DNA of 44,054 bases from Psychromonas sp. (lineage in GTDB: Bacteria; Pseudomonadota; Gammaproteobacteria; Enterobacterales; Psychromonadaceae), in assembly GCA_013619145.1 (NCBI GenBank), contig JABXKR010000152.1:1-44054 (forward strand), in the 5' to 3' direction. The notes under the pieces were generated by a model. The model was not told the origin of the DNA and ran no database searches. It worked only from the letters and a program-made list of their open reading frames with translations. Each line of letters opens with the position of its first letter. The stretch's first letter is position 1. A program made the translations under genes and the position numbers. This document shows, piece by piece, positions 25,316-34,185 of the stretch.

Positions 25316-25933
25316 TCACCACTGGTAATGATGGCTGGGGGTGATGATTTCAGGAAGCGGCACATCCCACTCTTCAATAGGCAGCTTTTCTACTTGTTGG
25401 CAGTCATGCGCCAGGCCGATTGGATAAGGGCCGCTTTTCTCTTTAAACCAGGGTGCAAGCATTCGGTCATAATAACCGCCGCCCATACCGATGCGGTTCC
25501 CCTGCAGATCAAAAGCAACAAGGGGTGTGAAAATAATATCTAATTTTTTAACTGCACAAGTGTGTAATTGCTCTAATTTCGGCTCGTAAATACCATATTT
25601 ATTAAGCACCATTTCAGAATCTATTGTGTATTGCAAAAACAGCAGATGGCCTTTACTGAAAGGGTGCACAACAGGCAGGTAAACTTGTTTATTATTAGCC
25701 CAGCACCACTCTATAAATTCAAAGGTATCTATCTCACCATCGTGGGCTAGTGATATGCCGATATTTTGTGCGTTTAAGACTTTATTATGTTTAACCAATC
25801 GAGCGAATAATTTAGCTGCATCTTGTCTTTGTTGTAAGCCCGACAAATCACGTCTTGCTGTACGCATTTGATTACGTATTTGTGAACGGATTTGATTTGC
25901 TGAAAATGTATTGCCTGGATTGTCCATAACCAT
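25316..25933 (-). CDS. ygfA: 5-formyltetrahydrofolate cyclo-ligase
   Basis: ATP-dependent conversion of 5-formyl-THF to methenyl-THF, recycling a folate by-product; it has been linked to persister formation in E. coli. It has 205 residues. The family signature GNRIGMGGGYYDR and the FTPLVAFD strand are present. The ATG follows AAGGG at about 9 bases. In E. coli ygfA lies right after ssrS (6S RNA) and is co-transcribed with it. Here the same order is kept, but a ~600 bp repeat array intervenes. Confidence 0.95.
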   Translation of the reverse strand: MVMDNPGNTFSANQIRSQIRNQMRTARRDLSGLQQRQDAAKLFARLVKHNKVLNAQNIGISLAHDGEIDTFEFIEWCWANNKQVYLPVVHPFSKGHLLFLQYTIDSEMVLNKYGIYEPKLEQLHTCAVKKLDIIFTPLVAFDLQGNRIGMGGGYYDRMLAPWFKEKSGPYPIGLAHDCQQVEKLPIEEWDVPLPEIITPSHHYQW

Positions 25934-26060
25934 ATTAATAAGCCCTTTAAAAACAGTAGGTAAAGAATATCATTATTAATTAATAGATTAAAATTGAAGA
26001 TGGGAATATTGTTGTTTGTTAGTGCCTCGGTGTGTGGATTATATTTTTGATAAGTAGTGA

Positions 26061-26641
26061 GTAACCCAAGGATATCGTTATTGACTGTGATTTAGTAACA
26101 CGAAGGTCGATAGACGACGGTGTTTTTTTTGAATTGCTAAGCAAAGGAGAAAAAGGAGTAACCTAATAATATGGTTATTGAATGTAGTTTGTAATTAGAA
26201 GTTCAAAGCACTGACGTTTCTTAGCGCTTTATTTCGCTCTTTATTTAGTTGAGAAAAAGAGTAACCCAAGGATATCGTGATTGACTGTGATTTAGTAACG
26301 CTAAGGTCTATAGACGCCGGTGTCTTTGGTTTTTTATTTGACAAAATTAGGAATAAAAAGTCATTGGCTAAATAAACTAGGAAGAAAACGAAGTAACCCA
26401 AGGATATCGTGATTGACTGTGATTTAGTAACACTAAGGTCTATAGATTACGGTGTCTTTGCTTTTGAACTGTCTTAGTTTGAATAAGTAACTCGAGGATT
26501 GTTGCTGGCTGTAGTTTGTAATTATAAGTTTAAAGCACTGACGTTTCTTCGCGCTTTATTTAGTCGAGAGAAAGAGTAACCCAAGGGTATCAGTATTAAC
26601 TGTGGTTTAGTAATGCGAAGGTCGATAGACGACGGTGTCTT
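26061..26641 (-). repeat. Tandem array of six 6S RNA 3'-domain copies
   Basis: Six diverged copies of the last ~65 bases of the 6S gene lie head-to-tail downstream of it in the same orientation. Type A copies begin (plus-strand view) GTAACCCAAGGATATCG at 26061, 26261, 26393 and 26576 and run to GGTGTC. Type B copies, more diverged, begin at 26158 and 26487. Spacing is about 97, 103, 132, 94, 89 and 87 bases, the last to the true 6S end. Type A matches 6S at both flanks and differs in the middle hairpin. B-A pairs are themselves duplicated (26158-26326 and 26487-26641). No credible ORF is present. The rest of the gap to ygfA (25934-26060) shows nothing further. Confidence 0.88.
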
Positions 26642-26662
26642 GTTTTGCTAGAAAAGTGAAGA

Positions 26663-26844
26663 GTAACCCAAGGATATCGTTATTGACTGTAGACCTTGAA
26701 CCCGAAGGTCAAAGTCGGTGTCTTAGTGTTTGCCGCAGGCTTCTCGATACGAGCCGAGCTTGCACAATAGCATTCAGGCCAAGTCACCAGGATAAAGCTT
26801 ATCGGCTCAGGGACGTAGTCAAGATGAGCGGATATCCGAGGGTT
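26663..26844 (-). ncRNA. ssrS: 6S RNA
   Basis: Global regulator that binds sigma70 RNA polymerase by mimicking an open promoter. On the minus strand it carries CCCTGAGCCGATA and GCTCGG…CGAGAAGCCT, both as in E. coli 6S, and a GACAC…ACCTTCGGGTTCAAGGT hairpin. The ends pair: AACCCTCGGATATC (5') with GATATCCTTGGGTT (3'). The length of about 182 nt fits the 184 nt of E. coli. It lies between zapA and ygfA, the standard gammaproteobacterial position. Ends are approximate to a few bases. Confidence 0.93.
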
Positions 26845-26850
26845 AAAAAT

Positions 26851-26878
26851 ACTTTACGCCAGTTTTGTGTATTTGCAA
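26851..26878 (-). promoter_or_regulatory. Probable promoter of the 6S RNA gene
   Basis: On the minus strand TTGCAA (26878-26873) and TAAAGT (26856-26851) are separated by 16 bases. The 6S 5' end falls 6-7 bases after the -10. Both hexamers are imperfect, but the position fits the folded RNA's start. Confidence 0.6.
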
Positions 26879-26979
26879 AGTGTTTTTTTATGCTGATTTT
26901 TAATCTTGTTTTAGTATTGATATAAATTTTTACAATAGATGATTTAAGCGGTTAAAAAATAAAAGATTTATCGATCCGG

Positions 26980-27276
26980 CTATTTTTTATTATTTGGTTG
27001 CAAAACGGTTTCGATTGATTCTTGCAGGGTTTTAATACGTTCATTGAGTTGTTCTGCATGTTTTTTATTTTTAGCTTTTTCTGCATTAAGCTCGTGACAG
27101 AAGTTTAATGCGGCCATCACAATAAGTTGCTCATTACGTAGAGCGCGACTGCTGGTTTTCATCTTTTTTAACTTGTCGTTAAATTGATCAACCGTATTTT
27201 GCAGCGTTTGCTCTTCACCATCCGGGCAGGCGATTTTATATTGCTGTCCTAAAATCGAGATCTCAATATTTGCCAT
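26980..27276 (-). CDS. zapA: Cell division protein ZapA
   Basis: Crosslinks FtsZ filaments at the division ring. It has 98 residues (E. coli 109). The N-terminal beta domain IEISILGQQYKIACPDGEEQ is followed by a helical part ending in a coiled coil (LNAEKAKNKKHAEQLNERIK). The ATG at 27276 has a GGG at 7 bases and fits orthologues; an ATG at 27291 does not. It is divergent from ygfB and upstream of 6S RNA, as in E. coli. Confidence 0.95.
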   Translation of the reverse strand: MANIEISILGQQYKIACPDGEEQTLQNTVDQFNDKLKKMKTSSRALRNEQLIVMAALNFCHELNAEKAKNKKHAEQLNERIKTLQESIETVLQPNNKK

Positions 27277-27424
27277 AATTAACCCATACAATAAAAGGTG
27301 GAATGAACGCTAAAATAAATGTTAGCAAGCTCAAAAAAAAGAGAATAATTTAAGAACTATAGCTATCTCGCTATCAAGTTTCAAGTACTTACTGGTAGCG
27401 TGATCTACTGGATGTTAGAATATT

Positions 27425-27480
27425 ATATTCAAGCTGCCTGGAAGTGCCGAATCTGCATTTTCAAATAGCACGAGTATATT
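27425..27480. repeat. Degenerate copy of the dispersed palindromic repeat
   Basis: ATATTCAAGCTGCCTGGAAG followed by ATCTGCATTTTCAAATAGCA retains the order of the family (CTGCAT-TTCAA-TAG), but the arms no longer pair well. It lies in the divergent zapA/ygfB promoter region, 30 bases before ygfB. Confidence 0.45.
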
Positions 27481-27510
27481 CAATTAATCGTTAATATAAA
27501 GAGTCTACAA

Positions 27511-28080
27511 ATGAGTAAAGAGCCATTACCAAGTTTTGAAAAAATCACTCAGATACTTGAAGACGCTGAGTTATATACTAATGCCTCGGAAACGCACGGC
27601 GTATTATCAGGGCTTGTTTGTGGTGGTGTTAAACTAGACTCTCAAAGTTGGCGGCCTCATTTTAATGATGTCGTTAATGAGGGCATGGGGCTACCAAGCA
27701 AGGCAAATAAATTGGTTGAGGCTATTTACGGGCAAGTGGTTAATCAATTTACCGATGATGGTTTGGGCTTTAAGTTGTTATTGCCTGGTGATGATGTGCC
27801 ACTTGATGAGCGTGCGGAAGCGATGGCGCAATGGTCACAAGGTTTTTTAGTCGGGTTTGGGATGGTCCAGCAAGCCTTAAATCAAGCCTCTGATGAAATT
27901 CAAGAGCTGATCCGTGATATTCGAGATATTTCACAAGTGGCGTTTGATTTTGAACAGGAAGATGAAGAATCTGAAATCGCTTTTGCAGAAATTGTTGAGT
28001 ATTTAGGTGTGGGGGCGATGCTTTGTTTTAATACTTTTTCTCGTCAACCTGCAACACCAATTTCAAAGACCCTTCATTAA
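27511..28080 (+). CDS. ygfB: UPF0149 family protein YgfB
   Basis: A 189-residue acidic cytoplasmic protein of the YgfB/YecA family. The conserved N-terminal ASETHGVLSGLVCGG and the WSQGFLVGFGM segments are present. It is the first gene of the plus-strand run ygfB-pepP-ubiH-ubiI, 21 bases from pepP, with AAAGAG as ribosome site. The biochemical role is not settled; a Pseudomonas homologue affects beta-lactamase expression. Confidence 0.92.
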   Translation: MSKEPLPSFEKITQILEDAELYTNASETHGVLSGLVCGGVKLDSQSWRPHFNDVVNEGMGLPSKANKLVEAIYGQVVNQFTDDGLGFKLLLPGDDVPLDERAEAMAQWSQGFLVGFGMVQQALNQASDEIQELIRDIRDISQVAFDFEQEDEESEIAFAEIVEYLGVGAMLCFNTFSRQPATPISKTLH

Positions 28081-34108: not shown

Positions 34109-34185
34109 CGGTATGTAGCGCAGCTTGGTAGCGCACTGCTCTGGGGGAGCAGGGGTCGGAGGTTCGAATCCTCTCATACCGACCA
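34109..34185 (+). tRNA. tRNA-Pro (anticodon GGG)
   Basis: A complete 77-nt cloverleaf. The acceptor stem is CGGTATG/CATACCG with an encoded CCA end. The anticodon stem CTGCT/AGCAG encloses the loop CTGGGGG with anticodon GGG, and the T arm is GGAGG-TTCGAAT-CCTCT. A T-rich tract follows as a likely terminator. It stands alone between the DUF5329-like gene and kdsD, with no sign of an integrated element at its 3' end. Confidence 0.97.

Follow-up and report, generated by a model that had tools for sequence, protein, structure and literature searches.

Tandem copies of the 6S RNA 3' end behind ssrS in Psychromonas and three other families: a possible multiplied termination module

The 3' end of the 6S RNA gene ssrS, together with a short trailer, forms a tandem repeat in four bacterial families, and the repeat units are mostly homogenized within each genome. 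Six such units lie between ssrS and ygfA in the window, that is, the whole 44,054-nt stretch of Psychromonas DNA analysed here. Judging from sequence comparison, we interpret the arrays as 6S-linked repeats, in which a duplicated ssrS 3'-end module, Rho-loading in some families, would lengthen the termination zone before ygfA; we give this interpretation a probability of about 0.45.

Results

Six copies of the 6S RNA 3' end lie between ssrS and ygfA

The genes and repeat units at the ssrS locus of the window are as follows.

26980..27276, minus strand: zapA, upstream neighbour of ssrS (PF05164 ZapA, 83.1 bits); gene order as in E. coli
26662..26846, minus strand: ssrS, full-length 6S RNA (RF00013, 70.1 bits, model positions 1-187)
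26575..26661, minus strand: unit u1, 87 bp, trailer and copy of the last ~70 nt of 6S (35.6 bits by BLAST with the 6S 3' end, and alignment)
26486..26574, minus strand: unit u2, 89 bp, diverged type (84% identity to u5; missed by BLAST with 6S only)
26392..26485, minus strand: unit u3, 94 bp (49.1 bits; last 29 nt 96.6% identical to 6S)
26260..26391, minus strand: unit u4, 132 bp (49.1 bits; last 29 nt 96.6% identical to 6S)
26157..26259, minus strand: unit u5, 103 bp, diverged type (34.6 bits; 84% identity to u2)
26060..26156, minus strand: unit u6, 97 bp, final copy (57.2 bits, 88% identity)
25316..25933, minus strand: ygfA (fau), 5-formyltetrahydrofolate cyclo-ligase, downstream gene (PF01812, 158.5 bits)

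On the minus strand, zapA is followed by ssrS, a gap of 728 bp and ygfA. The gap contains six units on the same strand as ssrS, 87 to 132 bp long, which together form an array of 602 nt from 26661 to 26060. Each unit begins with a variable trailer and closes with a duplicate of the terminal ~70 nt of 6S. An earlier sequence-only reading had placed six same-strand copies here; its interval, 26061 to 26844, does contain the array but takes in the 6S gene as well. The chance level for matches to the 6S 3' end was set with 1000 dinucleotide shuffles of the interval, using the last 75 nt of 6S as the BLAST query. The best match in the shuffles reached 29.2 bits, and five of the six units were above it (u6, u3, u4, u1 and u5, with 34.6 to 57.2 bits), so that these five resemble the 6S end better than chance. 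The sixth, u2, was recognized through its similarity to u5; it scored 34.4 bits against a unit profile built partly from u2 itself. The array also has a higher-order structure, with the block u1-u2-u3 being 84% identical to the block u4-u5-u6. The last 17 nt are the same as those of 6S in u3, u4 and u6 and differ in u1, u2 and u5.

Measured from the 6S 3' end, the units extend 70 to 72 nt back. None of them contains a full-length 6S RNA or its promoter-mimic bubble, and ssrS alone passed the RF00013 gathering score, in agreement with the earlier proposal that the 3' domain was repeated without the 6S core. The short interval expected from other bacteria was also found: ssrS and ygfA are separated by 75 bp in E. 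coli and by 49 to 167 bp in the 15 array-free Psychromonas genomes in which ygfA adjoins ssrS. Elsewhere in its own genome, the array had no clear unit match, all other matches having an E value of 0.0088 or worse. Within the window, the 3' end of the tRNA gene at 34109-34182 was present once when up to three mismatches were allowed; thus, such repeats do not follow every stable-RNA gene here.

A protein-coding array was rejected: the sole open reading frame of at least 50 amino acids wholly inside it has 68 amino acids, starts with TTG and crosses unit borders, and four of the six unit lengths are not divisible by three. A mobile element was rejected as well, there being no other frame of that size wholly inside the array. 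The region from 25400 to 27700 has four weak inverted pairs, one of which has both arms inside the array, and the promoter search of the interval gave four weak matches, with 3.4 expected. A separate tandem repeat was noticed at the contig end (43283-44054); it has a period of 427 bp, which is not divisible by three, comprises 1.8 copies with 94% matches, and overlaps open reading frames. It may be the cause of the contig ending at that point.

Arrays within Psychromonas

The genus set comprised 24 genomes, with 22 relatives being compared; 6S was found in 23 of the 24 and not in G017. Arrays were present in 6 of these 23 genomes.

Window genome: six units
G004 (P. antarctica): five units, u5 degenerate
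G005 (which we take to be P. ingrahamii 37): two units, single contig
G021 (Psychromonas sp. MB-3u-54): five units
G016 (P. hadalis): one contig ends inside the array and another starts with a unit; at least two whole units if the contigs join
G023 (P. aquimarina): two units and a third cut short, found by self-comparison

The units follow immediately on the 6S 3' end, and a copy of that end closes almost every one of them, the exceptions being u5 of G004 and u3 of G023. In a tree of PepP, ZapA and YgfA, in which several nodes including the root were weakly supported, the carriers had array-free sisters (support of 1.0 for G015 with G023 and 0.987 for G013 with G016). The array-free relatives include G015, G013 and G022; a match behind ssrS of G022 had an E value of 0.042, lay 883 nt away and was taken as chance. 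In the alignment, a block of four columns was filled in all 23 Psychromonas unit rows and gapped in all 23 6S rows. Because the block occurs in every unit and in no 6S row, the Psychromonas units probably share one origin that was followed by losses. The block itself rests on the alignment, and a pattern search for a 4-nt insertion missed several rows.

The region downstream of ssrS varies in gene content, too. No ygfA adjoining ssrS was found in G003 and G010. By eye, a serA-like frame takes its expected place in G003, and a TolC-like frame does so in G010 and on the P. hadalis contig that starts with a unit (L033, L040 and L062). In G005 and G021 (L035 and L050), an extra frame with a small membrane-protein-like product was seen by eye between the array and ygfA, at distances from ssrS of about 620-1020 and 850-1250 nt. 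Psychromonas genomes seem to be subject to rearrangement downstream of ssrS.

Arrays in other families

Among 84 distinct regions downstream of ssrS, a sample enriched for carriers, 16 had at least one extra copy: 6 from Psychromonas, 6 from family f10, 3 from f16 and 1 from f6. A BLAST search with 6S on 57 entries (56 distinct genomes) found f10 arrays in G056 (five units of 82 bp) and G032 (three units). The f10 set consisted of 12 genomes. Extra copies were present in six of the seven genomes of one genus (5, 3, 3, 2, 1 and one degenerate copy), the seventh, G062, having none, and they were not found in the five genomes of three other genera. Since the same kind of search missed the G023 array, diverged arrays may have been overlooked in the regions covered only by 6S-BLAST; self-comparison covered 27 G entries and the 12 f10 genomes.

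A sequence model was built for the 3' domain of 6S. It was applied to 21 loci, to the kin of the window and to 247 genomes of the order, and in the last set it flagged seven further genomes. Adjacent copies were confirmed in G240 (f6; three units of 116 to 118 bp) and in G180, G072 and G090 (f16). G109, G201 and G130 were rejected as arrays, as the second match lies elsewhere in the genome. The counts from this order survey are a lower bound, for the known carriers G063, G023 and G061 gave one match each. When extended to 185 genomes of the class (among them the window's own genome and G029 from the same order), the survey, which was of low sensitivity, found no new array; 88 of the 185 genomes had a match, and G259, G304 and G402 had two matches each, on different contigs. 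The arrays probably arose independently in the four families. In the G180 units (L134), an insertion near the end forms a local palindrome, CTTAC ... GTAAG, by eye; it was not seen by eye in the units of Psychromonas, f10 or G240.

Recurrence also bears on whether the repeats could have been created by assembly. The assembly that contains the window consists of 336 contigs, of which the window is one. However, its units differ among themselves, and arrays occur in the single-contig genomes G005, G032, G060 and G240, so arrays in general are not assembly artefacts; that the window array is one is most improbable.

The units of a genome usually resemble one another most. In 12 of 13 genomes, units were on average more alike within the genome than between it and any other, in a comparison of genomes with at least two units that left out u3 of G023 and u3 of G072, and on a measure that gives about 0.6 for unrelated units. 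The exception was G032 (L007), with 0.73 within and 0.80 to another genome, and G000 was narrowly homogenized (0.77 within versus 0.76 to G004). The G005 units had an identity of 0.86 within the genome and 0.79 to G021, the 6S genes of these two genomes being 0.989 identical.

Base composition, terminators and folding

How transcription might end in these regions was approached through terminator scans and base composition. Two scans for a GC hairpin followed by a T run found no intrinsic terminator in the window interval, and no hairpin with a T run was found behind ssrS in any of the 23 Psychromonas genomes, the stretches being short in G016 (142 nt) and G023 (300 nt). In G240, the hairpin/T-run scan found this element in all three units; the second terminator scan did not report them. 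The hairpin/T-run scan also gave one match inside the G180 array, single matches beyond the copies in L126 and G090, and a single match in the array-free genome G106. Orientation, and the lack of a terminator found before the array, fit co-transcription of the array with ssrS.

A Rho-dependent terminator is made up of about 80 nt of C-rich, G-poor RNA in which C recurs at regular steps beyond what composition alone gives. The C/G ratio was 1.82 to 3.81 in all 11 Psychromonas and f10 arrays tested, each higher than in all of 38 background downstream spacers (pooled ratio of 1.06), which came from the window and 17 named loci and in which a spacer between convergent genes was counted once per strand. 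The window array had a ratio of 1.82, with a maximum of 4.5 in a stretch of 78 nt. The arrays of G180 (1.04) and G240 (1.05) were not C-rich. Among the array-free ssrS spacers, 11 of 15 likewise exceeded all 38 background regions, and the E. coli spacer had a ratio of 2.7. Therefore, C-richness belongs to the trailer and not to the array. A C spacing more regular than in the shuffles at the 0.05 level was found in only 3 of 13 arrays; in the window array, 126 stretches were counted against a shuffle mean of 78.5, and 14.5% of the shuffles reached 126.

In the 6S-derived part of the units, the loss of G exceeded that of C in 14 of 15 genomes (sign test, 0.001), with ancestry shared within families and G061, which has a degenerate copy, left out. 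The losses of G and C were 36% and 14% in Psychromonas, 35% and 6% in f10, 16% and 9% in f16, 2% and 9% in f6, and 6% and 0% in G180. The sole exception, G240, is the genome with predicted terminators in its units. Fourfold sites in the window were unbiased in ygfA (16 C and 14 G), zapA (7 and 7) and serA (26 and 28); those in rpiA do show a C excess (15 and 7). Finally, the arrays folded roughly as strongly as their base composition predicts, and RNAalifold predicted no base pair for 43 aligned 6S ends and units, a weak test since both kinds of sequence were mixed.

Discussion

The explanation that we prefer starts from the place where ssrS transcription would end. The last ~50-75 nt of ssrS and a short trailer have been duplicated in tandem as one module, presumably by slippage and unequal recombination. 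If this module is the site of ssrS termination, each C-rich, G-poor copy would add Rho-loading RNA, and the added copies would lengthen the zone in which the ssrS transcript is ended ahead of ygfA. In G240, whose repeated module has an intrinsic terminator by prediction, the same solution may have been reached by the other termination route. We favour this explanation because of the predicted terminator in G240, the lack of any found in Psychromonas, the bias of C over G and the end of ssrS in E. coli, where Chae et al. are said to have reported Rho-dependent termination in 2011. Selection against pairing with the 6S 5' strand may be another source of the G loss; such pairing is at the shuffled level in G005 and G021, and three of the six window copies keep it in full. 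Among the functions suggested earlier, an effect on ygfA through the read-through transcript would fit best.

A strong rival, which we nevertheless consider somewhat doubtful, is that the copies arose by slippage in a permissive transcribed spacer and have no function, their composition being that of the old ssrS trailer, kept by whatever shapes the trailer. It remains strong because the array-free spacers are equally C-rich. The spread of copy number within one f10 genus (0 to 5 in seven genomes), the array-free sisters of the carriers (at some weakly supported nodes) and the RNAalifold result, weak as it is on a mixed alignment, also point this way. However, four families have the copies at the same place and in the same register, probably from independent origins, and strand-symmetric drift would not give a greater loss of G than of C in 14 of 15 genomes. 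The four-column block in all 23 Psychromonas units argues against it as well, as one unit lineage has then probably been long-lived.

The second alternative, that the copies are processed into small RNAs that bind Hfq or CsrA, as reported for RrA, RrB and RrF between the rrn terminators of E. coli, is improbable. Its precedent is the repeats behind three E. coli rRNA operons, for which this is reported in PMC8144298. There is no GGA in the 602-nt window array, which disfavours CsrA binding and hence a CsrA sponge. Moreover, the units diverge fast between sister species, with identities of 0.76 and 0.79 where those of 6S are 0.973 and 0.989, and the 6S 3' hairpin has been lost in units of the window and of G004.

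Even less probable is a role of the copies as alternative 3' strands, with which the 6S 5' strand would pair in read-through RNA so that 6S is altered or blocked. In the window, u3, u4 and u6 are each predicted to pair with the 6S 5' strand at -19.3 kcal, as strongly as the regular 3' strand does, and u6 is the partner chosen in the predicted global fold of the read-through RNA. Strong pairing was also predicted in G240, u1 and u2 of G072, L124, u1 and u3 of L007 and the last unit of G016. By contrast, pairing was at about the shuffled level or worse in G005, G021, L126 (G063), L127 (G064) and G090, and the nearer strand would be favoured if folding occurs during transcription. The earlier suggestion of alternative 6S 3' ends therefore holds as a possibility for the window, through these three units, and not for several of the other arrays.

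The 6S arrays have parallels in known repeats. According to PMC8144298, E. coli has 22 tRNA-linked repeats (TLRs), which were first described in 1978 and of which most have no known function; three of them lie behind rRNA operons, between two terminators, and are reported as small RNAs, and rrnB has an 18-bp copy of the 5S 3' end and two terminators. In E. coli K-12, we found the repeat behind tyrV three times with a period of 178 bp, every copy carrying the final 19 nt of the tRNA gene, and an exact 13-nt copy of the 5S 3' end at +156-168 behind rrfB. Like the TLRs (rttR of tyrT/tyrV, and rrA, rrB and rrF), the 6S arrays lie directly behind a stable-RNA gene, on the same strand, and their units end in a copy of its 3' end. 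TLRs follow tRNA or rRNA genes, whereas the window array follows 6S, which makes it TLR-like and not a TLR. The copied part is ~50-75 nt in the 6S arrays, as against 18-19 nt in TLRs, and the units are mostly 70 to 132 bp, unlike those of TLRs. There are six units in the window and one to five in the other 6S arrays, compared with the one to five described per TLR locus in E. coli.

The ssrS locus of E. coli has no such repeats. Its reportedly Rho-dependent region concerns the same gene and the same place, with a spacer whose C-richness was described above. A nearer parallel to G240 is T1/T2 of E. coli rrnB, where a highly transcribed RNA gene has both its 3' end and a terminator doubled (PMC8144298); G240 has a 3'-end copy with a predicted terminator in each of three units behind 6S. 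The Psychromonas arrays differ from rrnB T1/T2 in that the scans found no intrinsic terminator in them.

The sequence-only reading had known of no precedent for such an array. In keeping with this, no 6S repeat array was among the literature matches listed, a search of titles and opening abstracts with most subscription papers outside its scope. On the other hand, the E. coli TLRs have the same layout and 6S arrays recur in relatives, so precedents do exist. From the sequences compared here, the layout is one known from TLRs, the stable RNA concerned, 6S, is different, and the arrays occur beyond one genome. We propose, tentatively, that 6S-linked repeats may represent a new convergent class of tandem termination modules, Rho-loading or intrinsic, that would insulate a very active small-RNA gene, with the E. 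coli TLRs in the same general class of stable-RNA 3'-end repeats.

Across several families, the arrays provide a natural series in which the copy number runs from 0 to 6 while the 6S genes are similar. With this series, one can ask of repeats of a gene's own tail whether they terminate transcription, give rise to small RNAs or are neutral debris. The answer would bear on how the 3' ends of 6S RNA arise and on how the ssrS promoter is kept from acting on ygfA.
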